Positions 4,556 through 44,802 of a DNA stretch of 64,000 nt are shown piece after piece. The translations under genes were made by a program, and so were the position numbers. The stretch's first letter is position 1; each line of letters starts with the position of its first letter. Below the pieces are notes generated by a model. That model saw nothing but the letters and a program-made list of their open reading frames with translations. It was not told the DNA's origin and ran no database searches. The stretch is taken from contig JAPJBO010000040.1 in NCBI GenBank assembly GCA_030068145.1, forward strand, positions 310,001 through 374,000, given 5' to 3'. The stretch is from Diplonema papillatum (Eukaryota > Euglenozoa > Diplonemea > Diplonemida > Diplonemidae).

Positions 4556-4925
4556 TGTATAAGCACCCGTAGGTAATACTCGAGGAGGCCGCTAGTTGCA
4601 AAGTTTCAAAAAGTGTGTACGCATCAACATGCCGTTGACCCCTTACTGCTGCAACCAGAGTCCAAAACTCAAGGAGAAAATTAGCTGCAACCCATGGTTG
4701 TTCGATCGGACAGTGCCGTGATGCAACCACTGGATGAATTATGGCTGAACGCCTCCAAGCCAGAATCCAGTCTAGAGGAATGTGTGAGTTACTCAGGGCA
4801 CATCGGATTTATCGGGCCACGACTAGCTGCAGCGCAGGTACAGTCTGGGTTCATGGCTGGTAAGCGTTCAACAAACAGACCCACTTTGTTATTGCAATGT
4901 TTCTCCGCCTCTAGCCTCCGTTGAA
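4556..4925 (+). repeat. Dispersed repeat family R3, copy b (diverged)
   Basis: Both ends match R3: an ATAAGCACC-type start with a CTCGAGGAGGCCGCTAGTTG block, and an AAGCGTTCAACAAACAGACCC plus CTCTAGCCTCC end. The middle is longer than in other copies and poorly matched, so this is probably an old copy with an insertion. Confidence 0.55.
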
Positions 4926-5461
4926 ACACGCACACACAGGGTGACAGGTGATTTTGCTTGGGCCTGTCATCCAGAAGCAGCCTGCACGCTTGGTTACAAC
5001 GAACCAGCACCCACTTGACCCGCGCCCGTGGCCTCCTCCTGCCCGGAGGTGTAGTGCTGGGTACGAAATCGGCGCCAGCGCTTCGGGTTCTGTGGGCGTT
5101 GCATTCGAAAGCCGAGAATTACTGAGTTCTCGGACTTGTCTCCCCCGCTCTCTGTTCGTGCCTGTCAGCCCCCGTCCGCCGCCAGAACAGTGATTTATAT
5201 ATGGGTCTGGGGCTCGGGGCCACCCCGAGCGCGAAAAAAAAAAAAATTGACTTAATTTTGGGCTGGGGGTTGGGGTAGGGCCGGGTCACTACCAACCGGG
5301 ATCAGCGGGGGTGAGGGACGAAGCCATGGCGAAGCCATGGCGAAGTCATGGCGAAAGCCATGGCGAAGCCATGGGGGCAGGAAGAGTAAAACGGAGGCGG
5401 GGAAAGAGGAGGCAGGAGGGCCAGGGGCGGAGGGCCAAAGGGGGTGGTGGGAGGCGAGACG
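4926..5461. other. Intergenic with short NcoI-rich repeat
   Basis: No gene is supported. Around 5321-5373 five imperfect copies of a 12-bp word containing GCCATGGCGAA occur in tandem. A 13-base A-run lies near 5234. Confidence 0.5.
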
Positions 5462-6300
5462 TTGACTACCAAGTCTAATTAAATTTGGGATCGGAAATTG
5501 AACGTTGACTACCAATTCTAATTAAATTTGGATTCAAAATTGAACGTTGACTACCAATTCTAATTAAATTTGGATTCAAAATTGAACGTTGACTACCAAT
5601 TCTAATTAAATTTGGATTCAAAATCGAACGTTGACTACCAATTCTAATTAAATTTGGATTCAAAATTGAACGTTGACTACCAATTCTAATTAAATTTGGA
5701 TTCAAAATCGAACGTTGACTACCAATTCTAATTAAATTTGGATTCAAAATTGGACGTTGACTACCAATTCTAATTAAATTTGGATTCAAAATTGAACGTT
5801 GACTACCAATTCTAATTAAATTTGGATTCAAAATCGAACGTTGACTACCAATTCTAATTAAATTTGGGATCGGAAATTGGACGTTGACTACCAATTCTAA
5901 TTAAATTTGAGATCGGAAATTGGACGTTGACTACCAATTCTAATTAAATTTGAGATCGGAAATTGGACGTTGACTACCAATTCTAATTAAATTTGAGATC
6001 GGAAATTGGACGTTGACTACCAATTCTAATTAAATTTGGATTCAAAATTGAACGTTGACTACCTATTCTAATTAAATTTGGGATCCGAAATTGGACGTTG
6101 ACTACCAATTCTAATTAAATTTGAGATCGGAAATTGGACGTTGACTACCAATTCTAATTAAATTTGAGATCGGAAATTGGATGTTGACTACCTATTCTAA
6201 TTAAATTTGGGATCCGAAATTGGACGTTGACTACCAATTCTAATTAAATTTGGATTCAAAATTGAACGTTGACTACCAATTCTAATTAATTTTGGATCCG
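5462..6300. repeat. 42/43-bp AT-rich satellite
   Basis: About 20 tandem copies of a unit with the core CGTTGACTACCAATTCTAAT then TAAATTTG. Two subtypes alternate: one with GGATTCAAAATT (42 bp) and one with GAGATCGGAAATT or GGGATCGGAAATT (43 bp). The 42-bp subtype keeps a minus-strand frame open for a long run of 14-residue repeats; that is a by-product of a unit length divisible by three and not evidence of a protein. Confidence 0.95.
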
Positions 6301-7110: not shown

Positions 7111-7388
7111 AAGTACAAGGCAGCCCCTCGAGTAGTTTGCGTCGGACCTTAACAGACTACAACCGAATCATGGCTCCGGCTCACCGGTAAGTCCCAGCAC
7201 ATCCATAACAGGTCCCCATGGGTGCTTCCGATACAGCATCGAAAAAAGGAGGTTTTGTTCCAAGTTCCCGCCACCCAGATTCCCATCCGATGAAAGCGTT
7301 GTTCCCGAAAACCACCCGCCCACCCGTCCGTAGGTTTCTTTCCGACTACACAAAAGCGAAAGTGAGCTCAAGAACAACGGTGCTTACC

Positions 7389-10300
7389 ATGCGCGGCGTT
7401 ATAACGGCCGTGGCGGTGCTACTCTGTCCCGTCTCGTCTCAAGACATCGATTGCGACGCGATATTTAATCGCCAGGCGTGCCAAGGCCACGTGTGCGATG
7501 AAGACACCGGCATGCGATGCCAATGGACGGTGCTTCCAACCGGAGAAGCGCATTGCCGCTGCCCCTCGCAGTGCAGGAGCCACCAATCCGAAGACCGGTG
7601 CGAAAGCAACCAGTGCCCGTCCTCCCCCTCCGAGCCCTGCAAGTGGAATTCCCACCTCGAAGAGTGCTCTTGCCCGCGCCCGGCTCGTTGCTCCGAAGTT
7701 GGCCACGGGATGTGTCCTTCGACACCTTGTCCTGAAGATTCCACGCAGTTCTGCCGCTTCAACGAGGCGACCGAAGCGTGCGAGTGCCCGACGCCGGCTA
7801 AGACCTGCGCTCAGTTCGCCACCGAAAAATCCTGCAAGAAGCAGACCTGCCCTGAGGACCCCGAGGCAGCCTGCCGCTGGTCCGAAAGCTTCGCCACCTG
7901 CGTCTGCAGCGACGATCCGGTCACATGCGCCCGCGCCACGCACCCGAAGGAGTGCACGTTCGCACTCTGCCCCGAGAATCCGACCAGCCCCTGCTTCTGG
8001 AACGATGACTTCGGCACGTGCGGCTGCAGCTCGCCCCTCCCTTGCGAGCGCAAGTCGCGCGGAGAGTGCGTCGGCGAGTGCCCCACCGTGCCGGGCAATG
8101 TTTGCAGGTGGAACTCGGAGCGGGCGTTCTGCACGTGTGTCCCCGACGTTCCGCGGTCGTGCCGCGATTTGCAGTCCGCCTCCGCTTGTACAGGCGCGTG
8201 CGGGGAATCGGCTTTTTCGGGCGAGTGCGTCTGGTCCGACGCGTCGGCTTCCTGCGACTGCTCGCCGCTCGACTGTGCCTCCATCAACAACGAGCTCTCC
8301 TGCCAACTATCCGTCTGCCCTCGGGACACTTCTCGGCGCTGCAACTGGGATAGGTCTTCCGCTTCTTGCGCTTGCAGTCCTGGCGTCAAGTCCTGCGCGC
8401 GTTACAACCGCATCCAATGTCCACTTTTCGCCTGTCCTCTCGACCCTTCTCGCAGCTGTGAGTGGAGTACCGACTCTTCTTCCTGCCAATGCTCTTCGTC
8501 AACCCTGACTTGTGCTGACCTTCCGCAGTCCCGCTGTTCCGCGTCGTCGTGTCCTGAGGACTCAAGCAGGAACTGCAATTGGAACCCCTTTACCGCATCA
8601 TGCCAATGTCTGGGTGTGGTCTTCTTGAAATGCGAGAACTTCAACGAGGCCACCTGCTCGCGGGTATCTTGCCCGACGAATCCAACCGAGAGATGCCACT
8701 GGAACACCGCGCAATCGCAATGCCAATGCCAACCTGTTGTGAAGACGTGTGCCCTCCTGTCACGGGAGCAGTGCCTGCAATCCGCGTGCCCCGAAGATCC
8801 CGACCAGAAGTGTACGTGGAACGTGCTGACTGACAGATGTCAGTGTGGCCCAATCGTCATTCAGAGGTGTGAAAGCTTCGGTCAGAAGGAGTGCTCGCAG
8901 GTTGCTTGCCCGACTAATCCGAACGAGAGATGCCAATGGAACATGGCACAATCGCAATGCCAATGTCAACCTGTTGTGAAGACGTGTGCCCTGCTGTCAC
9001 GGGAGCAGTGCCTGCAATCCGCGTGCCCCGAAGATCCCGACCAGAAGTGTACGTGGAACGTGCTGACTGACAGATGTCAGTGCGGCCCAATCGTCATTCA
9101 GAGGTGTGAAAGCTTCGGTCAGAAGGAGTGCTCGCAGGTTGCTTGCCCGACTAATCCGAACGAGAGATGCCAATGGAACACGGCACAATCGCAATGCCAA
9201 TGTCAACCTGTCGTGAAGACGTGTGCCCTCCTGTCACGGGAGCAGTGCCTGCAATCCGCGTGCCCCGAAGATCCCGACCAGAAGTGTACGTGGAACTCGC
9301 TTGTCGACAGATGTCAGTGTGGACCTGTTGTGGTTCCGAGGTGTGAAACCTTCGGTCAAGACGAGTGCTCGCAGGTTGCTTGCCCAACTAATCCGAACGA
9401 GAGATGCCAATGGAACCGAGAAGAAGCACAATGTCAATGCAAACCTGTTGTGAAGACGTGTGCCCTGCTGTCACGGGAGCAGTGCCTGCAATCCGCGTGC
9501 CCCGAAGATCCCGACCAGAAGTGTACGTGGAACTCGCTTGTCGACAGATGTCAGTGTGGACCTGTTGTGGTTCCGAGGTGTGAAACCTTCGGTCAAGACG
9601 AGTGCTCGCAGGTTGCTTGCCCAACTAATCCGAACGAGAGATGCCAATGGAACCGAGAAGAAGCACAATGTCAATGCAAACCCGTCGTGAAGACGTGTGC
9701 CCTCCTGTCACGGGAGCAGTGCCTGCAATCCGCGTGCCCCGAAGATCCCGACCAGAAGTGTACGTGGAACGTGCTGACTGACAGATGTCAGTGCGGCCCA
9801 ATCGTCATTCAGAGGTGTGAAAGCTTCGGTCAAGACGAGTGCTCGCAGGTTGCTTGCCCGACTAATCCGAACGAGAGATGCCAATGGAACACGGCACAAT
9901 CGCAATGCCAATGTCAACCTGTTGTGAAGACGTGTGCCCTGCTGTCACGGGAGCAGTGCCTGCAATCCGCGTGCCCCGAAGATCCCGACCAGAAGTGTAC
10001 GTGGAACGTGCTGACTGACAGATGTCAGTGCGGCCCAATCGTCATTCAGAGGTGTGAAAGCTTCGGTCAGAAGGAGTGCTCGCAGGTTGCTTGCCCGACT
10101 AATCCGAACGAGAGATGCCAATGGAACACGGCACAATCGCAATGCCAATGTCAACCTGTCGTGAAGACGTGTGCCCTCCTGTCACGGGAGCAGTGCCTGC
10201 AATCCGCGTGCCCCGAAGATCCCGACCAGAAGTGTACGTGGAACGTGCTGACTGACAGATGTCAGTGTGGCCCAATCGTCATTCAGAGGTGTGAAAGCTT

Positions 10301-13300
10301 CGGTCAGAAGGAGTGCTCGCAGGTTGCTTGCCCGACTAATCCGAACGAGAGATGCCAATGGAACACGGCACAATCGCAATGCCAATGTCAACCTGTTGTG
10401 AAGACGTGTGCCCTCCTGTCACGGGAGCAGTGCCTGCAATCCGCGTGCCCCGAAGATCCCGACCAGAAGTGTACGTGGAACGTGCTGACTGACAGATGTC
10501 AGTGTGGCCCAATCGTCATTCAGAGGTGTGAAAGCTTCGGTCAGAAGGAGTGCTCGCAGGTTGCTTGCCCGACTAATCCGAACGAGAGATGCCAATGGAA
10601 CACGGCACAATCGCAATGCCAATGTCAACCTGTTGTGAAGACGTGTGCCCTCCTGTCACGGGAGCAGTGCCTGCAATCCGCGTGCCCCGAAGATCCCGAC
10701 CAGAAGTGTACGTGGAACTCGCTTGTCGACAGATGTCAGTGTGGACCTGTTGTGATTCCAAGGTGTGAAAGCTTCGGTCAAGACGAGTGCTCGCAGGTTG
10801 CTTGCCCAACTAATCCGAACGAGAGATGCCAATGGAACCGAGAAGAAGCACAATGTCAATGCAAACCCGTTGTGAAGACGTGTGCCCTCCTGTCACGGGA
10901 GCAGTGCCTGCAATCCGCGTGCCCCGAAGATCCCGACCAGAAGTGTACGTGGAACTCGCTTGTCGACAGATGTCAGTGTGGACCTGTTGTGATTCCAAGG
11001 TGTGAAAGCTTCGGTCAAGACGAGTGCTCGCAGGTTGCTTGCCCAACTAATCCGAACGAGAGATGCCAATGGAACCGAGAAGAAGCACAATGTCAATGCA
11101 AACCCGTTGTGAAGACGTGTGCCCTTCTGTCCCGAGAGCAGTGCCTGCAATCCGTGTGCCCTGAAGATCCCGACCAGAAGTGTACGTGGAACTCGCTTGT
11201 CGACAGATGTCAGTGTGGACCTGTTGTGATTCCAAGGTGTGAAAACTTCGGTCAAGACGAGTGCTCGCAGGTTGCTTGCCCAACTAATCCGAACGAGAGA
11301 TGCCAATGGAACCGAGAAGAAGCACAATGTCAATGCAAACCCGTTGTGAAGACGTGTGCCCTTCTGTCCCGAGACGAGTGCCTGCAATCCGTGTGCCCTG
11401 AAGATCCCGACCAGAAGTGTACGTGGAACTCGCTTGTCGACAGATGTCAGTGTGGACCTGTTGTGATTCCAAGGTGTGAAAGCTTCGGTCAAGACGAGTG
11501 CTCGCAGGTTGCTTGCCCGACGAATCCGAACGAGAGATGCCAATGGAACACGGCACAATCGCAATGCCAATGTCAACCTGTTGTGAAGACGTGTGCCCTG
11601 CTGTCACGGGAGCAGTGCCTGCAATCCGCGTGCCCCGAAGATCCCGACCAGAAGTGTACGTGGAACGTGCTGACTGACAGATGTCAGTGCGGCCCAATCG
11701 TCATTCAGAGGTGTGAAAGCTTCGGTCAGAAGGAGTGCTCGCAGGTTGCTTGCCCGACTAATCCGAACGAGAGATGCCAATGGAACACGGCACAATCGCA
11801 ATGCCAATGTCAACCTGTTGTGAAGACGTGTGCCCTGCTGTCACGGGAGCAGTGCCTGCAATCCGCGTGCCCCGAAGATCCCGACCAGAAGTGTACGTGG
11901 AACGTGCTGACTGACAGATGTCAGTGTGGCCCAATCGTCATTCAGAGGTGTGAAAGCTTCGGTCAGAAGGAGTGCTCGCAGGTTGCTTGCCCGACTAATC
12001 CGAACGAGAGATGCCAATGGAACACGGCACAATCGCAATGCCAATGTCAACCTGTTGTGAAGACGTGTGCCCTCCTGTCACGGGAGCAGTGCCTGCAATC
12101 CGCGTGCCCCGAAGATCCCGACCAGAAGTGTACGTGGAACGTGCTGACTGACAGATGTCAGTGTGGCCCAATCGTCATTCAGAGGTGTGAAAGCTTCGGT
12201 CAGAAGGAGTGCTCGCAGGTTGCTTGCCCGACTAATCCGAACGAGAGATGCCAATGGAACACGGCACAATCGCAATGCCAATGTCAACCTGTTGTGAAGA
12301 CGTGTGCCCTCCTGTCACGGGAGCAGTGCCTGCAATCCGCGTGCCCCGAAGATCCCGACCAGAAGTGTACGTGGAACTGCTGACTGACAGATGTCAGTGC
12401 GGCCCAATCGTCATTCAGAGGTGTGAAAGCTTCGGTCAGAAGGAGTGCTCGCAGGTTGCTTGCCCGACTAATCCGAACGAGAGATGCCAATGGAACACGG
12501 CACAATCGCAATGCCAATGTCAACCTGTTGTGAAGACGTGTGCCCTCCTGTCACGGGAGCAGTGCCTGCAATCCGCGTGCCCCGAAGATCCCGACCAGAA
12601 GTGTACGTGGAACTCGCTTGTCGACAGATGTCAGTGTGGACCTGTTGTGATTCCAAGGTGTGAAAGCTTCGGTCAAGACGAGTGCTCGCAGGTTGCTTGC
12701 CCAACTAATCCGAACGAGAGATGCCAATGGAACCGAGAAGAAGCACAATGTCAATGCAAACCCGTTGTGAAGACGTGTGCCCTGCTGTCACGGGAGCAGT
12801 GCCTGCAATCCGCGTGCCCCGAAGATCCCGACCAGAAGTGTACGTGGAACGTGCTGACTGACAGATGTCAGTGTGGCCCAATCGTCATTCAGAGGTGTGA
12901 AAGCTTCGGTCAGAAGGAGTGCTCGCAGGTTGCTTGCCCGACTAATCCGAACGAGAGATGCCAATGGAACACGGCACAATCGCAATGCCAATGTCAACCT
13001 GTCGTGAAGACGTGTGCCCTCCTGTCACGGGAGCAGTGCCTGCAATCCGCGTGCCCCGAAGATCCCGACCAGAAGTGTACGTGGAACGTGCTGACTGACA
13101 GATGTCAGTGTGGCCCAATCGTCATTCAGAGGTGTGAAAGCTTCGGTCAGAAGGAGTGCTCGCAGGTTGCTTGCCCGACTAATCCGAACGAGAGATGCCA
13201 ATGGAACACGGCACAATCGCAATGCCAATGTCAACCTGTTGTGAAGACGTGTGCCCTCCTGTCACGGGAGCAGTGCCTGCAATCCGCGTGCCCCGAAGAT

Positions 13301-16300
13301 CCCGACCAGAAGTGTACGTGGAACTCGCTTGTCGACAGATGTCAGTGTGGACCTGTTGTGATTCCAAGGTGTGAAAGCTTCGGTCAAGACGAGTGCTCGC
13401 AGGTTGCTTGCCCGACTAATCCGAACGAGAGATGCCAATGGAACACGGCACAATCGCAATGCCAATGTCAACCTGTTGTGAAGACGTGTGCCCTGCTGTC
13501 ACGGGAGCAGTGCCTGCAATCCGCGTGCCCCGAAGATCCCGACCAGAAGTGTACGTGGAACGTGCTGACTGACAGATGTCAGTGCGGCCCAATCGTCATT
13601 CAGAGGTGTGAAAGCTTCGGTCAGAAGGAGTGCTCGCAGGTTGCTTGCCCGACTAATCCGAACGAGAGATGCCAATGGAACACGGCACAATCGCAATGCC
13701 AATGTCAACCTGTTGTGAAGACGTGTGCCCTGCTGTCACGGGAGCAGTGCCTGCAATCCGCGTGCCCCGAAGATCCCGACCAGAAGTGTACGTGGAACGT
13801 GCTGACTGACAGATGTCAGTGCGGCCCAATCGTCATTCAGAGGTGTGAAAGCTTCGGTCAGAAGGAGTGCTCGCAGGTTGCTTGCCCGACTAATCCGAAC
13901 GAGAGATGCCAATGGAACACGGCACGATCGCAATGCCAATGTCAACCTGTTGTGAAGACGTGTGCCCTGCTGTCACGGGAGCAGTGCCTGCAATCCGCGT
14001 GCCCCGAAGATCCCGACCAGAAGTGTACGTGGAACGTGCTGACTGACAGATGTCAGTGCGGCCCAATCGTCATTCAGAGGTGTGAAAGCTTCGGTCAGAA
14101 GGAGTGCTCGCAGGTTGCTTGCCCGACTAATCCGAACGAGAGATGCCAATGGAACACGGCACAATCGCAATGCCAATGTCAACCTGTTGTGAAGACGTGT
14201 GCCCTGCTGTCACGGGAGCAGTGCCTGCAATCCGCGTGCCCCGAAGATCCCGACCAGAAGTGTACGTGGAACGTGCTGACTGACAGATGTCAGTGTGGCC
14301 CAATCGTCATTCAGAGGTGTGAAAGCTTCGGTCAGAAGGAGTGCTCGCAGGTTGCTTGCCCGACTAATCCGAACGAGAGATGCCAATGGAACACGGCACA
14401 ATCGCAATGCCAATGTCAACCTGTTGTGAAGACGTGTGCCCTCCTGTCACGGGAGCAGTGCCTGCAATCCGCGTGCCCCGAAGATCCCGACCAGAAGTGT
14501 ACGTGGAACTCGCTTGTCGACAGATGTCAGTGTGGACCTGTTGTGATTCCAAGGTGTGAAAGCTTCGGTCAAGACGAGTGCTCGCAGGTTGCTTGCCCAA
14601 CTAATCCGAACGAGAGATGCCAATGGAACCGAGAAGAAGCACAATGTCAATGCAAACCCGTTGTGAAGACGTGTGCCCTGCTGTCACGGGAGCAGTGCCT
14701 GCAATCCGCGTGCCCCGAAGATCCCGACCAGAAGTGTACGTGGAACGTGCTGACTGACAGATGTCAGTGTGGCCCAATCGTCATTCAGAGGTGTGAAAGC
14801 TTCGGTCAGAAGGAGTGCTCGCAGGTTGCTTGCCCGACTAATCCGAACGAGAGATGCCAATGGAACACGGCACAATCGCAATGCCAATGTCAACCTGTCG
14901 TGAAGACGTGTGCCCTCCTGTCACGGGAGCAGTGCCTGCAATCCGCGTGCCCCGAAGATCCCGACCAGAAGTGTACGTGGAACGTGCTGACTGACAGATG
15001 TCAGTGTGGCCCAATCGTCATTCAGAGGTGTGAAAGCTTCGGTCAGAAGGAGTGCTCGCAGGTTGCTTGCCCGACTAATCCGAACGAGAGATGCCAATGG
15101 AACACGGCACAATCGCAATGCCAATGTCAACCTGTTGTGAAGACGTGTGCCCTCCTGTCACGGGAGCAGTGCCTGCAATCCGCGTGCCCCGAAGATCCCG
15201 ACCAGAAGTGTACGTGGAACGTGCTGACTGACAGATGTCAGTGTGGCCCAATCGTCATTCAGAGGTGTGAAAGCTTCGGTCAGAAGGAGTGCTCGCAGGT
15301 TGCTTGCCCGACTAATCCGAACGAGAGATGCCAATGGAACACGGCACAATCGCAATGCCAATGTCAACCTGTCGTGAAGACGTGTGCCCTCCTGTCACGG
15401 GAGCAGTGCCTGCAATCCGCGTGCCCCGAAGATCCCGACCAGAAGTGTACGTGGAACGTGCTGACTGACAGATGTCAGTGCGGCCCAATCGTCATTCAGA
15501 GGTGTGAAAGCTTCGGTCAGAAGGAGTGCTCGCAGGTTGCTTGCCCGACTAATCCGAACGAGAGATGCCAATGGAACACGGCACAATCGCAATGCCAATG
15601 TCAACCTGTTGTGAAGACGTGTGCCCTGCTGTCACGGGAGCAGTGCCTGCAATCCGCGTGCCCCGAAGATCCCGACCAGAAGTGTACGTGGAACGTGCTG
15701 ACTGACAGATGTCAGTGCGGCCCAATCGTCATTCAGAGGTGTGAAAGCTTCGGTCAGAAGGAGTGCTCGCAGGTTGCTTGCCCGACTAATCCGAACGAGA
15801 GATGCCAATGGAACACGGCACAATCGCAATGCCAATGTCAACCTGTTGTGAAGACGTGTGCCCTCCTGTCACGGGAGCAGTGCCTGCAATCCGCGTGCCC
15901 CGAAGATCCCGACCAGAAGTGTACGTGGAACTCGCTTGTCGACAGATGTCAGTGTGGACCTGTTGTGATTCCAAGGTGTGAAAGCTTCGGTCAAGACGAG
16001 TGCTCGCAGGTTGCTTGCCCAACTAATCCGAACGAGAGATGCCAATGGAACCGAGAAGAAGCACAATGTCAATGCAAACCCGTTGTGAAGACGTGTGCCC
16101 TGCTGTCACGGGAGCAGTGCCTGCAATCCGCGTGCCCCGAAGATCCCGACCAGAAGTGTACGTGGAACGTGCTGACTGACAGATGTCAGTGTGGCCCAAT
16201 CGTCATTCAGAGGTGTGAAAGCTTCGGTCAGAAGGAGTGCTCGCAGGTTGCTTGCCCGACTAATCCGAACGAGAGATGCCAATGGAACACGGCACAATCG

Positions 16301-19300
16301 CAATGCCAATGTCAACCTGTTGTGAAGACGTGTGCCCTGCTGTCACGGGAGCAGTGCCTGCAATCCGCGTGCCCCGAAGATCCCGACCAGAAGTGTACGT
16401 GGAACGTGCTGACTGACAGATGTCAGTGTGGCCCAATCGTCATTCAGAGGTGTGAAAGCTTCGGTCAGAAGGAGTGCTCGCAGGTTGCTTGCCCGACTAA
16501 TCCGAACGAGAGATGCCAATGGAACACGGCACAATCGCAATGCCAATGTCAACCTGTTGTGAAGACGTGTGCCCTGCTGTCACGGGAGCAGTGCCTGCAA
16601 TCCGCGTGCCCCGAAGATCCCGACCAGAAGTGTACGTGGAACGTGCTGACTGACAGATGTCAGTGCGGCCCAATCGTCATTCAGAGGTGTGAAAGCTTCG
16701 GTCAGAAGGAGTGCTCGCAGGTTGCTTGCCCGACTAATCCGAACGAGAGATGCCAATGGAACACGGCACAATCGCAATGCCAATGTCAACCTGTTGTGAA
16801 GACGTGTGCCCTGCTGTCACGGGAGCAGTGCCTGCAATCCGCGTGCCCCGAAGATCCCGACCAGAAGTGTACGTGGAACGTGCTGACTGACAGATGTCAG
16901 TGCGGCCCAATCGTCATTCAGAGGTGTGAAAGCTTCGGTCAGAAGGAGTGCTCGCAGGTTGCTTGCCCGACTAATCCGAACGAGAGATGCCAATGGAACA
17001 CGGCACAATCGCAATGCCAATGTCAACCTGTTGTGAAGACGTGTGCCCTCCTGTCACGGGAGCAGTGCCTGCAATCCGCGTGCCCCGAAGATCCCGACCA
17101 GAAGTGTACGTGGAACTCGCTTGTCGACAGATGTCAGTGTGGACCTGTTGTGATTCCAAGGTGTGAAAGCTTCGGTCAAGACGAGTGCTCGCAGGTTGCT
17201 TGCCCAACTAATCCGAACGAGAGATGCCAATGGAACCGAGAAGAAGCACAATGTCAATGCAAACCCGTTGTGAAGACGTGTGCCCTCCTGTCACGGGAGC
17301 AGTGCCTGCAATCCGCGTGCCCCGAAGATCCCGACCAGAAGTGTACGTGGAACTCGCTTGTCGACAGATGTCAGTGTGGACCTGTTGTGATTCCAAGGTG
17401 TGAAACCTTCGGTCAAGACGAGTGCTCGCAGGTTGCTTGCCCAACTAATCCGAACGAGAGATGCCAATGGAACCGAGAAGAAGCACAATGTCAATGCAAA
17501 CCCGTTGTGAAGACGTGTGCCCTTCTGTCCCGAGACGAGTGCCTGCAATCCGTGTGCCCTGAAGATCCCGACCAGAAGTGTACGTGGAACTCGCTTGTCG
17601 ACAGATGTCAGTGTGGACCTGTTGTGATTCCAAGGTGTGAAAACTTCGGTCAAGACGAGTGCTCGCAGGTTGCTTGCCCGACGAATCCGAACGAGAGATG
17701 CCAATGGAACACGGCACAATCGCAATGCCAATGTCAACCTGTTGTGAAGACGTGTGCCCTCCTGTCACGGGAGCAGTGCCTGCAATCCGCGTGCCCCGAA
17801 GATCCCGACCAGAAGTGTACGTGGAACTCGCTTGTCGACAGATGTCAGTGTGGACCTGTTGTGATTCCAAGGTGTGAAAGCTTCGGTCAAGACGAGTGCT
17901 CGCAGGTTGCTTGCCCAACTAATCCGAACGAGAGATGCCAATGGAACCGAGAAGAAGCACAATGTCAATGCAAACCCGTTGTGAAGACGTGTGCCCTTCT
18001 GTCACGAGAGAGTGCCTGCAATCCGTGTGCCCTGAAGATCCCGACCAGAAGTGTACGTGGAACTCGCTTGTCGACAGATGTCAGTGTGGACCTGTTGTGA
18101 TTCCAAGGTGTGAAAACTTCGGTCAAGACGAGTGCTCGCAGGTTGCTTGCCCGACGAATCCGAACGAGAGATGCCAATGGAACACGGCACAATCGCAATG
18201 CCAATGTCAACCTGTTGTGAAGACGTGTGCCCTGCTGTCACGGGAGCAGTGCCTGCAATCCGCGTGCCCCGAAGATCCCGACCAGAAGTGTACGTGGAAC
18301 GTGCTGACTGACAGATGTCAGTGCGGCCCAATCGTCATTCAGAGGTGTGAAAGCTTCGGTCAGAAGGAGTGCTCGCAGGTTGCTTGCCCGACTAATCCGA
18401 ACGAGAGATGCCAATGGAACACGGCACAATCGCAATGCCAATGTCAACCTGTTGTGAAGACGTGTGCCCTCCTGTCACGGGAGCAGTGCCTGCAATCCGC
18501 GTGCCCCGAAGATCCCGACCAGAAGTGTACGTGGAACGTGCTGACTGACAGATGTCAGTGTGGCCCAATCGTCATTCAGAGGTGTGAAAGCTTCGGTCAG
18601 AAGGAGTGCTCGCAGGTTGCTTGCCCGACTAATCCGAACGAGAGATGCCAATGGAACACGGCACAATCGCAATGCCAATGTCAACCTGTTGTGAAGACGT
18701 GTGCCCTCCTGTCACGGGAGCAGTGCCTGCAATCCGCGTGCCCCGAAGATCCCGACCAGAAGTGTACGTGGAACTCGCTTGTCGACAGATGTCAGTGTGG
18801 ACCTGTTGTGATTCCAAGGTGTGAAAGCTTCGGTCAAGACGAGTGCTCGCAGGTTGCTTGCCCAACTAATCCGAACGAGAGATGCCAATGGAACCGAGAA
18901 GAAGCACAATGTCAATGCAAACCCGTTGTGAAGACGTGTGCCCTCCTGTCACGGGAGCAGTGCCTGCAATCCGCGTGCCCCGAAGATCCCGACCAGAAGT
19001 GTACGTGGAACTCGCTTGTCGACAGATGTCAGTGTGGACCTGTTGTGATTCCAAGGTGTGAAACCTTCGGTCAAGACGAGTGCTCGCAGGTTGCTTGCCC
19101 AACTAATCCGAACGAGAGATGCCAATGGAACCGAGAAGAAGCACAATGTCAATGCAAACCCGTTGTGAAGACGTGTGCCCTTCTGTCCCGAGACGAGTGC
19201 CTGCAATCCGTGTGCCCTGAAGATCCCGACCAGAAGTGTACGTGGAACTCGCTTGTCGACAGATGTCAGTGTGGACCTGTTGTGATTCCAAGGTGTGAAA

Positions 19301-22300
19301 GCTTCGGTCAAGACGAGTGCTCGCAGGTTGCTTGCCCGACTAATCCGAACGAGAGATGCCAATGGAACACGGCACAATCGCAATGCCAATGTCAACCTGT
19401 TGTGAAGACGTGTGCCCTCCTGTCACGGGAGCAGTGCCTGCAATCCGCGTGCCCCGAAGATCCCGACCAGAAGTGTACGTGGAACTCGCTTGTCGACAGA
19501 TGTCAGTGTGGACCTGTTGTGATTCCAAGGTGTGAAAGCTTCGGTCAAGACGAGTGCTCGCAGGTTGCTTGCCCAACTAATCCGAACGAGAGATGCCAAT
19601 GGAACCGAGAAGAAGCACAATGTCAATGCAAACCCGTTGTGAAGACGTGTGCCCTTCTGTCACGGGAGCAGTGCCTGCAATCCGCGTGCCCCGAAGATCC
19701 CGACCAGAAGTGTACGTGGAACTCGCTTGTCGACAGATGTCAGTGTGGACCTGTTGTGATTCCAAGGTGTGAAAGCTTCGGTCAAGACGAGTGCTCGCAG
19801 GTTGCTTGCCCGACTAATCCGAACGAGAGATGCCAATGGAACACGGCACAATCGCAATGCCAATGTCAACCTGTTGTGAAGACGTGTGCCCTCCTGTCAC
19901 GGGAGCAGTGCCTGCAATCCGCGTGCCCCGAAGATCCCGACCAGAAGTGTACGTGGAACTCGCTTGTCGACAGATGTCAGTGTGGACCTGTTGTGATTCC
20001 AAGGTGTGAAAGCTTCGGTCAAGACGAGTGCTCGCAGGTTGCTTGCCCGACTAATCCGAACGAGAGATGCCAATGGAACACGGCACAATCGCAATGCCAA
20101 TGTCAACCTGTTGTGAAGACGTGTGCCCTGCTGTCACGGGAGCAGTGCCTGCAATCCGCGTGCCCCGAAGATCCCGACCAGAAGTGTACGTGGAACGTGC
20201 TGACTGACAGATGTCAGTGCGGCCCAATCGTCATTCAGAGGTGTGAAAGCTTCGGTCAGAAGGAGTGCTCGCAGGTTGCTTGCCCGACTAATCCGAACGA
20301 GAGATGCCAATGGAACACGGCACAATCGCAATGCCAATGTCAACCTGTTGTGAAGACGTGTGCCCTGCTGTCACGGGAGCAGTGCCTGCAATCCGCGTGC
20401 CCCGAAGATCCCGACCAGAAGTGTACGTGGAACTCGCTTGTCGACAGATGTCAGTGTGGCCCAATTGTCATTCCAGAGGTGTGAAAGCTTCGGTCAAGAC
20501 GAGTGCTCGCAGGTTGCTTGCCCGACTAATCCGAACGAGAGATGCCAATGGAACACGGCACAATCGCAATGCCAATGTCAACCTGTTGTGAAGACGTGTG
20601 CCCTGCTGTCACGGGAGCAGTGCCTGCAATCCGCGTGCCCCGAAGATCCCGACCAGAAGTGTACGTGGAACGTGCTGACTGACAGATGTCAGTGCGGCCC
20701 AATCGTCATTCAGAGGTGTGAAAGCTTCGGTCAGAAGGAGTGCTCGCAGGTTGCTTGCCCGACTAATCCGAACGAGAGATGCCAATGGAACACGGCACAA
20801 TCGCAATGCCAATGTCAACCTGTTGTGAAGACGTGTGCCCTCCTGTCACGGGAGCAGTGCCTGCAATCCGCGTGCCCCGAAGATCCCGACCAGAAGTGTA
20901 CGTGGAACGTGCTGACTGACAGATGTCAGTGTGGCCCAATCGTCATTCAGAGGTGTGAAAGCTTCGGTCAGAAGGAGTGCTCGCAGGTTGCTTGCCCGAC
21001 TAATCCGAACGAGAGATGCCAATGGAACACGGCACAATCGCAATGCCAATGTCAACCTGTTGTGAAGACGTGTGCCCTCCTGTCACGGGAGCAGTGCCTG
21101 CAATCCGCGTGCCCCGAAGATCCCGACCAGAAGTGTACGTGGAACTCGCTTGTCGACAGATGTCAGTGTGGACCTGTTGTGATTCCAAGGTGTGAAAGCT
21201 TCGGTCAAGACGAGTGCTCGCAGGTTGCTTGCCCAACTAATCCGAACGAGAGATGCCAATGGAACCGAGAAGAAGCACAATGTCAATGCAAACCCGTTGT
21301 GAAGACGTGTGCCCTCCTGTCACGGGAGCAGTGCCTGCAATCCGCGTGCCCCGAAGATCCCGACCAGAAGTGTACGTGGAACTCGCTTGTCGACAGATGT
21401 CAGTGTGGACCTGTTGTGATTCCAAGGTGTGAAAGCTTCGGTCAAGACGAGTGCTCGCAGGTTGCTTGCCCAACTAATCCGAACGAGAGATGCCAATGGA
21501 ACCGAGAAGAAGCACAATGTCAATGCAAACCCGTTGTGAAGACGTGTGCCCTTCTGTCACGGGAGCAGTGCCTGCAATCCGCGTGCCCCGAAGATCCCGA
21601 CCAGAAGTGTACGTGGAACTCGCTTGTCGACAGATGTCAGTGTGGACCTGTTGTGATTCCAAGGTGTGAAAGCTTCGGTCAAGACGAGTGCTCGCAGGTT
21701 GCTTGCCCGACTAATCCGAACGAGAGATGCCAATGGAACACGGCACAATCGCAATGCCAATGTCAACCTGTTGTGAAGACGTGTGCCCTGCTGTCACGGG
21801 AGCAGTGCCTGCAATCCGCGTGCCCCGAAGATCCCGACCAGAAGTGTACGTGGAACGTGCTGACTGACAGATGTCAGTGCGGCCCAATCGTCATTCAGAG
21901 GTGTGAAAGCTTCGGTCAGAAGGAGTGCTCGCAGGTTGCTTGCCCGACTAATCCGAACGAGAGATGCCAATGGAACACGGCACAATCGCAATGCCAATGT
22001 CAACCTGTTGTGAAGACGTGTGCCCTGCTGTCACGGGAGCAGTGCCTGCAATCCGCGTGCCCCGAAGATCCCGACCAGAAGTGTACGTGGAACGTGCTGA
22101 CTGACAGATGTCAGTGCGGCCCAATCGTCATTCAGAGGTGTGAAAGCTTCGGTCAGAAGGAGTGCTCGCAGGTTGCTTGCCCGACTAATCCGAACGAGAG
22201 ATGCCAATGGAACACGGCACAATCGCAATGCCAATGTCAACCTGTTGTGAAGACGTGTGCCCTGCTGTCACGGGAGCAGTGCCTGCAATCCGCGTGCCCC

Positions 22301-24974
22301 GAAGATCCCGACCAGAAGTGTACGTGGAACGTGCTGACTGACAGATGTCAGTGCGGCCCAATCGTCATTCAGAGGTGTGAAAGCTTCGGTCAGAAGGAGT
22401 GCTCGCAGGTTGCTTGCCCGACTAATCCGAACGAGAGATGCCAATGGAACACGGCACAATCGCAATGCCAATGTCAACCTGTTGTGAAGACGTGTGCCCT
22501 CCTGTCACGGGAGCAGTGCCTGCAATCCGCGTGCCCCGAAGATCCCGACCAGAAGTGTACGTGGAACTCGCTTGTCGACAGATGTCAGTGTGGACCTGTT
22601 GTGATTCCAAGGTGTGAAAGCTTCGGTCAAGACGAGTGCTCGCAGGTTGCTTGCCCAACTAATCCGAACGAGAGATGCCAATGGAACCGAGAAGAAGCAC
22701 AATGTCAATGCAAACCCGTTGTGAAGACGTGTGCCCTCCTGTCACGGGAGCAGTGCCTGCAATCCGCGTGCCCCGAAGATCCCGACCAGAAGTGTACGTG
22801 GAACTCGCTTGTCGACAGATGTCAGTGTGGACCTGTTGTGATTCCAAGGTGTGAAAGCTTCGGTCAAGACGAGTGCTCGCAGGTTGCTTGCCCAACTAAT
22901 CCGAACGAGAGATGCCAATGGAACCGAGAAGAAGCACAATGTCAATGCAAACCCGTTGTGAAGACGTGTGCCCTTCTGTCCCGAGAGAGTGCCTGCAATC
23001 CGTGTGCCCTGAAGATCCCGACCAGAAGTGTACGTGGAACTCGCTTGTCGACAGATGTCAGTGTGGACCTGTTGTGATTCCAAGGTGTGAAAGCTTCGGT
23101 CAAGACGAGTGCTCGCAGGTTGCTTGCCCGACGAATCCGAACGAGAGATGCCAATGGAACACGGCACAATCGCAATGCCAATGTCAACCTGTCGTGAAGA
23201 CGTGTGCCCTGCTGTCACGGGAGCAGTGCCTGCAATCCGCGTGCCCCGAAGATCCCGACCAGAAGTGTACGTGGAACTCGCTTGTCGACAGATGTCAGTG
23301 TGGACCTGTTGTGATTCCAAGGTGTGAAAGCTTCGGTCAAGACGAGTGCTCGCAGGTTGCTTGCCCAACTAATCCGAACGAGAGATGCCAATGGAACCGA
23401 GAAGAAGCACAATGTCAATGCAAACCCGTTGTGAAGACGTGTGCCCTTCTGTCCCGAGAGAGTGCCTGCAATCCGTGTGCCCTGAAGATCCCGACCAGAA
23501 GTGTACGTGGAACTCGCTTGTCGACAGATGTCAGTGTGGACCTGTTGTGATTCCAAGGTGTGAAAGCTTCGGTCAAGACGAGTGCTCGCAGGTTGCTTGC
23601 CCGACGAATCCGAACGAGAGATGCCAATGGAACACGGCACAATCGCAATGCCAATGTCAACCTGTTGTGAAGACGTGTGCCCTCCTGTCACGGGAGCAGT
23701 GCCTGCAATCCGCGTGCCCCGAAGATCCCGACCAGAAGTGTACGTGGAACTCGCTTGTCGACAGATGTCAGTGTGGACCTGTTGTGATTCCAAGGTGTGA
23801 AAGCTTCGGTCAAGACGAGTGCTCGCAGGTTGCTTGCCCAACTAATCCGAACGAGAGATGCCAATGGAACCGAGAAGAAGCACAATGTCAATGCAAACCC
23901 GTTGTGAAGACGTGTGCCCTTCTGTCCCGAGACGAGTGCCTGCAATCCGTGTGCCCTGAAGATCCCGACCAGAAGTGTACGTGGAACTCGCTTGTCGACA
24001 GATGTCAGTGTGGACCTGTTGTGATTCCAAGGTGTGAAACCTTCGGTCAAGACGAGTGCTCGCAGGTTGCTTGCCCGACGAATCCGAACGAGAGATGCCA
24101 ATGGAACCGAGAAGAAGCACAATGTCAATGCAAACCCGTTGTGACGACGTGTGCCCTTCTGTCCCGAGACGAGTGCCTGCAATCCGTGTGCCCCGAGGAT
24201 CCCGACCAGAAGTGTACGTGGAACTCGCTTGTCGACAGATGTCAGTGTGGACCTGTTGAGATTCCGAGGTGTGAAACCTTCGGTCAAGACGAGTGCTCGC
24301 AGGTTGCTTGCCCGACGAATCCGAACGAGAGATGCCAATGGAACAGGGAAGAAGCGCAATGTCAATGCAAACCCGTCGTGAAGACGTGTGCCCTTCTGTC
24401 ACGAGACGAGTGCATGCTGTCCGCGTGCCCCGATGATGCGGACAGGAAATGCTCGTGGAATGGAGTGCTGGAGTTGTGTCAGTGCGGACCCGTTGAGACT
24501 TCATGCGAACTACTGCCAAAGGAGAGATGCGTTCAATCTGCGTGTGCTGAAGATCCGGACAGGAAGTGTGCTTGGAATGCGTTATTGGAGAAGTGTCAGT
24601 GTGCTGCGGTTGAAAAGAAGTGCGAAGTGTTTGGAAGAGAAGAATGCCTTGAGTCCGCGTGTCCTGAAGATGCGGGGAGGAAATGCATGTGGAATGCCTT
24701 GGTAGCGAAGTGTCAATGCGCCCCCATCGCGAATTCATGTGAAGCGCTCTCAGAAGAGAAATGTCTTCAGGCAGCGTGTCCTGAAGATCTGGATAGGAGC
24801 TGCTCGTGGAACGCGTCGGCGAACCAGTGTCAGTGTGAGAATACTGGGAAGTCGTGCCGTAGTTTCGGGAAGGATGAATGTGCGAGGTCTTTGTGCCCGT
24901 CAAATCCTCTTTCACGCTGCGGATGGAATTTGGACCTCGAAGTTTGCATGTGTCTGGGCATAGCTGTTGCGTAG
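7389..24974 (+). CDS. Giant secreted cysteine-rich repeat protein, five frameshifts
   Basis: The ATG at 7389 is preferred over the in-frame ATG at 7218 because it opens a typical signal peptide (MRGVITAVAVLLCPVSSQ, then mature DIDC). The mature protein is a string of six-cysteine modules, C-x7-C-x4-C-x7-C-x8-C-x-C, with Pro after the third Cys and Trp two residues after the fourth. I count 11 diverged modules (7444-8732), 132 modules in 66 homogenised pairs (8733-24371) and 5 diverged ones to the stop. There is no membrane anchor; the protein ends CMCLGIAVA. Six cysteines per module imply three disulfides each and a rod-like extracellular protein, perhaps a wall, coat or adhesive protein; that role is inference. 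Read literally, the first frame stops at 12383 (1,664 residues). Single-base indels at about 12378, 18009, 20474, 22985 and 23458 break it, but they sum to -3 and the last segment is back in frame. Corrected length would be about 5,862 residues. They may be real or assembly errors. Confidence 0.85.
12375..12383 (+). other. Frameshift 1: one-base deletion and stop
   Basis: Where other units read AAC GTG CTG ACT (VLT class) or AAC TCG CTT GTC (SLV class), this one reads AAC TGC TGA. One base is missing after 12377 and the frame stops at once. The site is a class-diagnostic codon. Confidence 0.9.
18003..18015 (+). other. Frameshift 2: one-base deletion in an SRDE codon
   Basis: Units here normally read CGA GAC GAG TGC or CGA GAG CAG TGC. 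This copy reads CGAGAGAGTGC, one base short, shifting the frame. The same lesion recurs at 22985 and 23458. Confidence 0.9.
20468..20484 (+). other. Frameshift 3: one-base insertion at a class junction
   Basis: The two unit classes read GTC ATT CAG AGG and GTG ATT CCA AGG here. This copy reads GTCATTCCAGAGG, which has one base too many and looks like the left part of one class joined to the right part of the other. The frame then meets TGA at 20482. Confidence 0.9.
22979..22991 (+). other. Frameshift 4: same deletion as at 18009
   Basis: Reads CCGAGAGAGTGCC instead of CCGAGACGAGTGCC. It is identical to the lesion at 23458, 473 bases downstream (two units minus one base). Confidence 0.9.
23452..23465 (+). 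other. Frameshift 5: same deletion again
   Basis: Reads CCGAGAGAGTGCC. After it the sequence is back in the reading frame of the first segment and stays open to the stop at 24972-24974. Confidence 0.9.
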
Positions 24975-31863: not shown

Positions 31864-34656
31864 ATGACCATGCAGAAGAGGCTGGTTGTGATGGCCGTGT
31901 CAGTTTGTATCGCGGTGTTGGCAAGTCCAGATCCGTGCCTAGAAGCCCCCACGAAGGAGAGGTGCGAAGCGCTCGGGATGTGCACAGTGGACGAGAAGTG
32001 CCAGTGGAACGACGACGACGGCTGCAGGTGTCCCGCTTGCCCATTCTACACACAGCAAGAGTGCCCGGAAAAAGATTGTCCCGGCAACACGGGTCAAAAG
32101 TGCGAGTGGCTGCAGGAGGCGCAGACCTGCGACTGCGTGGAGAAGACGTGCAAAGACTACACGAAGGAGGAATGCCCCCAAAAGGAGTGCCCAACGGACT
32201 CGACGAAGAAGTGCGTGTTCGCCGACGACGAATGCGTTTGCGACGACAAGTGCTCGGTGATCAAGGAAAAGAGCGCGTGTCCGCGTCGTTGCCCCGAGAA
32301 CAGCGAGTCGAAGTGCGTGTGGACATCCACCGGGACGACGGGCGAGTGCGACTGCTTCCCGCTGCCCACGCCTAAACCTGCTACTCCTACACCTCCGGTT
32401 GTCACTCCGACGCCCCTCACGTCTTGCCTGCAGATTACCCAGCAAACGCTTTGCGTGCAGTCCGAGTGCCCGGAAGACCCGAATAGGAAGTGCGCTTGGA
32501 ACGACAACGGTTGTGAGTGCAGCTCCTGCGAGATGTACAAAACGCAGACCCAATGCCAGGGGCAGGAGTGCCCGGAAGATAACACGCGGAATTGCGTCTG
32601 GTTCAACAACCAGTGTTCGTGCAAGGATTGCGGTCTGCTTACCCAGTCGCAATGCGACCTGGCCACGTGCCCCGAAGACGCGACAAAGCGATGCCTGTGG
32701 TTCGGCAACGAGTGCACCTGCTTCGAGAGTTGTCGCCAGCTTCCCAAGGACGTGTGCAACACTCGGAACTGCCCTGGGAACCCGAACCTACCCTGCGGAT
32801 GGGTCGACAACGTGGGGTGCATCTGTCTGCCGACCCCTCCGCCAACGCAGCCGCCGGCGACGCTGGCGCCTCCAACGAAGACTCCCGTCACGCGGTGTGA
32901 GCAGATTTCGTCGCCGAACCAGTGCTTGCAAACGAAGTGCCCTGACGACGAAACGTTCAACTGCGACTGGATCGACAACCTCTGCCAGTGCAAAAGCTGC
33001 GCGATATACTCGCAGAGCATGTGTCCGGGGTTCGTCTGTCCGGAAAACCCGAATATGAAGTGCAAATGGGACGTCGAGGACGAGTGCACCTGCTTTGACT
33101 CGTGCAGGAAACTGAAGACGAAGAGCGAATGTGCAGACAACAAGTGCCCAGACCACCCGAACCGAAACTGCGTGTGGTCGAGTGCCGGATGCGATTGCGA
33201 CATGGGAACGCCTGCTCCTCCGTTGACGCCCGCGCCTACTACTATCCTGCGTTGCCAGGACGTCACTTCGCCGACGCTGTGCGGGATGCTGAAGTGTCCG
33301 GAGGACGAAAACCGGGGGTGCGGCTGGATCGGCAACCAGTGCCTGTGCAAGTCCTGCGAACACTACCAAACCCAATCCCTGTGCGAAATCTCCGAGTGCC
33401 CGGAGGACAAGGACTCGAAGTGCAAGTGGAACCAGTGGAACAAGTGCGTCTGCGACTCGTGCAAGACGCAAACCACCGCGGCCGAGTGCGAAAGCACCGA
33501 GTGTCCCGACCAACCCAACACAAAGTGCAAGTGGACGACAACCGGATGCGATTGCCCTCCCTTCGTGAACTGCCGGAATGCCAGTTCAGCTGACGAGTGT
33601 GGAACCAGTCTTTGCCCCGGAGACGCGGACCGGGGATGCGGCTGGATCGGTCAAGAGTGCCTGTGCAAGTCCTGCGACCACTACCAAACCCAGGCTGCGT
33701 GCGAAAACGTCGAGTGCCCGGAAGACAAGGACTCGAAATGCAAATGGAATCAGTTGAACAAATGCGTCTGCGACTCTTGCAAGACGCAAAGCACCGCGGC
33801 CGAGTGCGAAAGCACCGAGTGTCCCGACCAACCCAACAAAAAGTGCAAGTGGACGACAACCGGATGCGACTGCCCTCCGTCGACCCCCGTGCCCACCATT
33901 ACGGGGGGATGCCGGGACGCCACTTCGCCGAACCTGTGTGGAACCAGTCTTTGTCCCGAAGATGCGGACCGGGGATGCGGCTGGATCGGTGAAGAGTGCC
34001 TGTGCAAGTCCTGCGAGCACTACCAAACCCGATCTCTGTGCGAAAACGTTCAGTGCCCGGAGGACAAGGACTCGAAGTGCAAATGGACCGGAAACACGTG
34101 CACCTGCGACTCGTGCAAGACGCAAACAACTGCGAGCGCATGCCAAATCGCCAAGTGCCCCGACCAACCCAACCTAAACTGCAAGTGGACGACAACCGGG
34201 TGCGATTGCCCTCCCTTCGTGAACTGCCGGAATGCCAGTTCAGCTGACGTGTGTGGAACCAGTCTTTGTCCCGAAGACGCGGACCGGGGATGCGGCTGGA
34301 TTGGTGAAGAGTGCCTGTGCAAGTCCTGCAAGCACTACGAAAACCAGGCTGCGTGCGAAAACGTCGAGTGCCCGGAGGACAAGGACTCGAAGTGCAAATG
34401 GACCGGGAAAGAGTGCACCTGCGACTCGTGCAAGACGCAAACCACCAATGACGATTGCAAGAACACCAAGTGCCCCCACCAACCGGGCAAAAACTGCCAG
34501 TGGACGACCGTCGGTGGATGCGACTGCCCGTCGACCCCCGCGCCCCCCACTACGGGCTGTGCGGCTGCCACCACGGAGGCAAATTGCCGTGAGAGTGTCT
34601 GCGATACCGGGGACCAATGCAGCTGGACGTCTGCTGCAGGCTGTGTCTGCCCGTGA
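31864..34656 (+). CDS. Secreted cysteine-rich 24-module protein with Pro/Thr linkers
   Basis: An intact 930-residue frame. The start at 31864 (a second ATG is at 31870) gives a signal peptide, with hydrophobic core LVVMAVSVCIAVLAS and cleavage near PDPC. The rest is 24 six-cysteine modules of 33-37 residues in the same pattern as the giant gene: C-x7-8-C-x4-CP-x6-C-x-W-x5-8-C-x-C. They come as blocks of four, four, three, three, three, three and three, plus one. Pro/Thr-rich linkers such as PTPKPATPTPPVVTPTPLT separate most blocks. The last four triplets (about 33250-34540) are near copies, a 105-residue super-repeat. A few modules have Phe instead of Trp. There is no membrane segment or GPI-type tail. 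The linkers look like O-glycosylation sites. A structural role in an extracellular matrix, wall or adhesive fits, but is inference. It is the closest local relative of the 7389 gene, on the same strand. Confidence 0.9.
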   Translation: MTMQKRLVVMAVSVCIAVLASPDPCLEAPTKERCEALGMCTVDEKCQWNDDDGCRCPACPFYTQQECPEKDCPGNTGQKCEWLQEAQTCDCVEKTCKDYTKEECPQKECPTDSTKKCVFADDECVCDDKCSVIKEKSACPRRCPENSESKCVWTSTGTTGECDCFPLPTPKPATPTPPVVTPTPLTSCLQITQQTLCVQSECPEDPNRKCAWNDNGCECSSCEMYKTQTQCQGQECPEDNTRNCVWFNNQCSCKDCGLLTQSQCDLATCPEDATKRCLWFGNECTCFESCRQLPKDVCNTRNCPGNPNLPCGWVDNVGCICLPTPPPTQPPATLAPPTKTPVTRCEQISSPNQCLQTKCPDDETFNCDWIDNLCQCKSCAIYSQSMCPGFVCPENPNMKCKWDVEDECTCFDSCRKLKTKSECADNKCPDHPNRNCVWSSAGCDCDMGTPAPPLTPAPTTILRCQDVTSPTLCGMLKCPEDENRGCGWIGNQCLCKSCEHYQTQSLCEISECPEDKDSKCKWNQWNKCVCDSCKTQTTAAECESTECPDQPNTKCKWTTTGCDCPPFVNCRNASSADECGTSLCPGDADRGCGWIGQECLCKSCDHYQTQAACENVECPEDKDSKCKWNQLNKCVCDSCKTQSTAAECESTECPDQPNKKCKWTTTGCDCPPSTPVPTITGGCRDATSPNLCGTSLCPEDADRGCGWIGEECLCKSCEHYQTRSLCENVQCPEDKDSKCKWTGNTCTCDSCKTQTTASACQIAKCPDQPNLNCKWTTTGCDCPPFVNCRNASSADVCGTSLCPEDADRGCGWIGEECLCKSCKHYENQAACENVECPEDKDSKCKWTGKECTCDSCKTQTTNDDCKNTKCPHQPGKNCQWTTVGGCDCPSTPAPPTTGCAAATTEANCRESVCDTGDQCSWTSAAGCVCP

Positions 34657-43815: not shown

Positions 43816-44802
<987 letters not shown>

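Follow-up and report, generated by a model that had tools for sequence, protein, structure and literature searches.

Frameshifts in a diplonemid tandem gene array probably reflect consensus error between two repeat classes

Introduction

Genes with homogenised tandem repeats can evolve by unequal exchange. The cysteine-rich repeat gene described here, from the diplonemid Diplonema papillatum, resembles genes of this general kind in its near-identical units, its mosaic combinations of block types, and its long exact duplicates. Its array unit matched no known protein family by Pfam, PDB, or fold search. The gene also carries five one-base frameshifts, and for these the closest described systems are found in long-read assembly.

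The part of the CHM13 account that deals with the GAGE tandem array on the X chromosome describes how standard long-read polishing corrupted that array through mismapping of reads to the wrong copies (PMC7484160). The explanation that we favor for the diplonemid array would be similar, with near-identical tandem units, reads placed on the wrong copies, and an accuracy that was lowered by polishing. The two systems differ in scale and in how the error is seen. The GAGE units described in that account are 9.5 kb long, and it was read coverage that revealed the error (PMC7484160). The diplonemid units are 237 bp long, and the proposed error, deduced from the consensus alone, has paired one-base gaps as its base-level signature. 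The part of the Canu description that treats the spliced contig template reports indel errors at read boundaries in that template (PMC5411767); the breaks analyzed here would likewise be small register errors that arise where the sequence of one read joins that of another. No description of the paired-gap signature was found in the literature passages searched, and we make no claim that it is unpublished.

Results

The window is a stretch of 64,000 nucleotides of contig JAPJBO010000040.1, which belongs to an assembly of 271 Mb in 2910 contigs. It contains a long cysteine-rich reading frame, the greater part of which is a coding tandem array (Table 1). Each 237-bp unit of the array encodes two modules (79 aa), and in each of several blocks the units fall into two sequence classes, which are intermixed. 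The 60 intact units represent 23 haplotypes and have 44 variable columns, at 40 of which the minor form is present in at least two units. Exact matches inside the array reach 976 bp, and the array clearly exchanges units among its copies. The N-terminus of the frame likely carries a signal peptide, as judged by eye, and the cysteine-rich repeat protein is probably secreted. None of the modules within the window matched a known domain. The array unit gave Pfam matches below the cut-off only, and a PDB sequence search with it returned no match. Its predicted structure has a mean pLDDT of 81.6 and a pTM of 0.48; a Foldseek search with this model gave a best E of 2.4 and no fold match at E <= 0.001. 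Two more tandem arrays lie upstream, outside the long frame, at 5459-6297 (42-bp unit, 20 copies) and 1532-2053 (31-bp unit, 17 copies), and an almost perfect CA dinucleotide repeat, with about 121 copies, occupies 43816-44058.

Table 1. Features of the long reading frame and its tandem array (positions in the window)
Feature	Position	Strand	Remarks
Long cysteine-rich reading frame	7218-24974	+	divided among six overlapping ORFs; stop at 24974
N-terminal part of long frame	7218..8654	+	about ten diverged six-cysteine modules; frameshift-free
Coding tandem array	8655..24433	+	237-bp (79-aa) unit, about 66 copies; 15.8 kb
C-terminal part of long frame	24434..24974	+	diverged modules and stop codon; frameshift-free
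Intact unit 11064	11064..11300	+	RDE-class flanks, REQ bases confined to columns 74-75, where three other units are broken
Broken unit 1, 236 bp	12249..12484	+	break ~12378, unit column 129-130, VLT/SLV codons
Broken unit 2, 236 bp	17936..18171	+	break ~18009, column 74-75, REQ/RDE codons
Broken unit 3, 238 bp	20305..20542	+	break ~20474, columns 168-171, IQR/IPR codons
Broken unit 4, 236 bp	22913..23148	+	break ~22985, same break as unit 17936
Broken unit 5, 236 bp	23386..23621	+	break ~23458; sequence identical to unit 22913

To locate the breaks, the array was split at a conserved anchor, whose 66 occurrences delimit 65 intervals. The interval length is 237 bp in 60 of the 65 cases, 236 bp in four, and 238 bp in one, and no off-length unit beyond these five is present among the anchor-to-anchor intervals. 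Anchor splitting and the frame positions together confirm the five frameshifts that an initial annotation of this DNA had placed at VLT/SLV, REQ/RDE (three times), and IQR/IPR codons (Table 1). The five breaks represent three distinct indels, with the REQ/RDE indel present in three units. Two of these three REQ/RDE breaks sit within a shared exact stretch of 454 bp and therefore need not be independent. None of the three break points falls in a run of at least three equal bases; a CCC precedes two of them at a distance of a few bases. Within the array, the only stop codons in the cysteine frame are those reached after a break. Genuine mutation usually yields more substitutions than indels. Here, one private substitution is found in the 58 interior intact units, as against three distinct indels, and the two edge units carry four more private substitutions. 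Programmed ribosomal frameshifting was considered and rejected, given that the breaks comprise four -1 and one +1 shifts at three different sequences that share neither a sign nor a slippery site.

All five breaks lie in class-diagnostic codons, as the initial annotation had stated. As an argument against random placement, however, this observation is weak, because 31 of the 79 codons are diagnostic and about 41% of random single-base indels would qualify when all possible indels are tested; for three distinct events the chance is about 0.07. After this comparison, the codon-position argument was rejected. A sharper test comes from the way in which the classes differ. At a few sites the difference consists of two shifted bases (GTG/TCG, GACGAG/GAGCAG, and CAG/CCA), and at such paired-gap sites a pair of opposite one-base gaps can take the place of two neighboring mismatches in the alignment. 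When both gap columns are dropped, the exact local broken sequence of unit 12249 is obtained, as is that of units 17936, 22913, and 23386. When both are kept, the exact local broken sequence of unit 20305 results. Each of the three distinct indels produces a sub- or supersequence common to two real unit classes, and each is located at a paired-gap site. As background, every single-base indel was enumerated in the 58 interior intact units with three bases of context. The paired-gap type accounts for 305 of 10,388 deletions (~2.9%) and 251 of 40,194 insertions (~0.6%). The joint chance that three of three distinct events are of this type is about 5e-6 at three bases of context, for a measure that was picked after the breaks were seen; it is 2.5e-6 at two bases and 7e-7 at four. 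Only context lengths of K = 2 to 4 are quoted: K = 5 and 6 gave smaller figures, but some breaks pass at these lengths only with an off-centre window. A context of K = 8 was rejected as too strict, since other class differences fall inside it, and K = 2 to 6 was used instead. The paired-gap test is sharper than the diagnostic-codon test, and its result is strong even though the measure was chosen post hoc.

Class mixing inside the units was examined in block 3, which has 13 class columns (129 to 170). Among the 60 intact units, 31 are exactly class A in this block and 26 are exactly class B; the remaining three (9168, 9405, and 24096), which lie toward the ends of the array, depart from class B at column 170 alone. 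In broken unit 20305, class A and class B bases alternate across columns 129-194, in the order B (129-137), A (155, 158, and 159), B (161), A (164), both classes at the break, and B (191-194). A block 3 patchwork like this one is found in 0 of the 60 intact units. Of 1450 control positions, only 0.3% are as chimaeric, that is, as poorly explained by one partner, as 20474, while the other four breaks are not more chimaeric than controls (fractions 0.13, 0.29, 0.23, and 0.23). Foreign-class bases outside the break are clear in unit 20305, number one in unit 17936, and are absent from units 12249, 22913, and 23386. Unit 12249 is class A on its right flank, and its left flank fits either class. 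The flanks of unit 17936 are RDE apart from one REQ base at column 68. RDE-type flanks occur in nine units, a set in which 17936 and 24096 each depart from the type at one flank column. At the break site, five of the nine are RDE, three are broken, and one, unit 11064, is REQ. A split vote at this one site allows all three outcomes at columns 74-75, although unit 11064 may also be a real variant.

The initial annotation had further described each broken sequence as the left half of one class joined to the right half of the other, one base out. Taken over the whole unit, this description holds for units 12249, 22913, and 23386. It fails for the other two, where the single-junction fit falls short by 3 bases (17936) and by 40 bases (20305, the patchwork). 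Units 22913 and 23386 in fact need no junction, because they are equal to intact unit 11301 save for one base. The two sides of 12378 match different places (540 bp on the left and 619 bp on the right), which at first suggested a template switch, but 13% of controls are as low or lower. Only 20474 is unusual relative to the 1450 controls, since the array is a mosaic throughout, and long-range junctions were therefore set aside as main evidence.

Consensus formation was simulated using indel-rich noisy reads of a draft's own class and of the other class, a cheap-gap alignment, and a majority vote at each column, with three drafts (A, B, and RDE), two scorings, and 40 runs each. Reads of a single class broke the frame in 0 of 240 runs. 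With half foreign reads and scoring 3/-5/-4, the frame was broken in 15 of 40 runs for draft A, 20 of 40 for draft B, and 2 of 40 for draft RDE. The events produced by mixed reads include the observed breaks, namely a loss at column 129 with draft A (unit 12249), a loss at column 74 with draft RDE (units 17936, 22913, and 23386), and a gain at column 171 with draft B (unit 20305). The gain at column 171 is a minority event, seen seven times when 40 runs were made at f = 0.5 under one of the scorings, and in the mixture-fraction runs it lies outside the five commonest events of every row. Other columns that are intact in the assembly also break in the simulation (12/14, 35/38, 134, 137, 169, 170, and 191), several at a higher rate; those that the simulation breaks most frequently (columns 35/38, 12/14, 134, 169, and 170) are never found as breaks in the assembly. 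At a 45% mixture, most broken runs show a single indel and no further class change. At 50%, most breaks in the A and B drafts are accompanied by other class changes.

A genome-wide protein search revealed further family members on several contigs. The six-cysteine-module family is clustered, at 31864-34656 and at loci L022-L031 (contigs C40, C108, C81, C22, and C718), and its members look secreted; several contain internal tandem units of their own together with proline-rich linkers. Another eleven open frames of the family, 7,632 aa and 22.9 kb in total, are unbroken, a count that leans to intact copies because the frames were found as open frames and that is therefore weak evidence. It leaves out the broken copy on C718 (L031) and short fragments on C99, C40:379617, and C991. 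These fragments (L002, L003, and L004) are 118-177 bp long, lie at a distance from the array, and match its unit DNA at 81-94%. On C81, locus L029 (4263-9137) has an open frame of 1625 aa in which a 141-bp unit is repeated 27 times. The copies are 98% alike and all in frame, and the interior units vary by a few shared substitutions only. There is no off-length unit in this array or in that at C40:113.9k (11 units of 138 bp). Because these control arrays are shorter and contain few interior paired-gap sites or, as on C81, none, they are a poor test of the mechanism. The C718 copy, at 4849-5568 on the minus strand, is truncated and 96% like a C108 gene. Compared with the C108 genes, it joins module types out of register (+7 net) and then has two losses of two bases. 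This copy is likely a real pseudogene fragment, and real broken family copies probably exist in the genome.

Discussion

From the consensus of the assembly, we infer, with a probability of about 0.8, that the frameshifts are errors of consensus or polishing that stem from mis-assigned reads. This explanation is favored because of the paired gaps, the simulation, the patchwork of unit 20305, the split outcomes at columns 74-75, the balance of indels over substitutions, and the unbroken state of the rest. Reads or read ends of one unit class would have been placed on units of the other class in the array. An aligner that treats indels as cheap would then write a shifted difference as two opposite one-base gaps rather than as two mismatches. 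If the two gap columns were voted on separately and one alone passed, the consensus would lose or gain one base. The mixing step may have been read correction, contig consensus, or polishing. Several observations run counter to this explanation. Four of the five broken units have none or one foreign class base outside the break, which requires a mixture close to one half, yet at 50% most simulated breaks in the A and B drafts bring further class changes. The sites that break most in the simulation are intact in the assembly, the simulated gain at column 171 is a minority event, and the breaks other than 20474 are no more chimaeric than controls. Two breaks are less than 1.5 kb from the right end of the array, where long reads could anchor in unique sequence, and the C718 copy shows that real broken copies probably exist.

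Real one-base indels, one of which spread among the units through unequal exchange or gene conversion, are an unlikely source of the breaks. The gene would then be a recent pseudogene, or its product would consist of the first 1721 residues only. Unit exchange in the array is clear from the exact matches of up to 976 bp, the shared 454-bp stretch holds two of the REQ/RDE breaks, and the C718 fragment is a broken family copy on another contig, all of which fit real indels. However, under random placement the chance of three of three events at paired-gap sites is ~5e-6. A pseudogene is also opposed by the reading frame, which has no in-frame stop before each break, and by the single private substitution in the 58 interior intact units. 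The patchwork of unit 20305 likewise argues against real indels.

Of the two causes that the initial annotation had offered, a consensus made from reads of mixed units is well supported because of the paired-gap test, the simulation, the patchwork unit, and the near absence of private substitutions. Misaligned recombination between the classes fares less well. As a real event in the organism, it would be recombination or template switching in which class A and class B strands pair as a heteroduplex during unit exchange. Opposite one-base loops would arise at the paired-gap sites, and repair in one direction would delete both or fill both in. The sites expected are those of consensus error, a single junction with a one-base offset fits three of the five units, and the short patchwork of unit 20305 resembles patchy mismatch repair. 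Nevertheless, we regard it as improbable. The single junction fails in two of the five units, and recombination leaves unexplained why every offset is exactly plus or minus one base. It also needs two loops, although duplex DNA usually prefers two mismatches over two loops. Patchy repair would be expected to produce frameshifts less frequently than in-frame patchworks, but a block 3 patchwork is seen in none of the 60 intact units, and the breaks other than 20474 are no more chimaeric than control positions. If recombination between classes were nonetheless the cause, frameshifts would follow predictably from gene conversion wherever an array has two classes, and their hot sites would be readable from the sequence beforehand.

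Ordinary random long-read indel errors in the consensus, blind to class, are very improbable: indels without stop codons are a typical residue of long-read assembly, but no break point is in a run of at least three equal bases, all three breaks are at paired-gap sites, and the other eleven open frames of the family (22.9 kb) contain no break.

Consensus error from mis-assigned reads remains the preferred explanation; in that case the cysteine-rich repeat protein is probably encoded by a single, very long frame that is intact. The paired-gap signature needs the assembly only and could flag similar errors in other tandem gene arrays for which reads are unavailable. If the frameshifts are consensus errors, annotation would divide a single, very long gene into several or introduce spurious tiny introns, and counts of pseudogenes or of repeat-protein genes in this genome would be misled.
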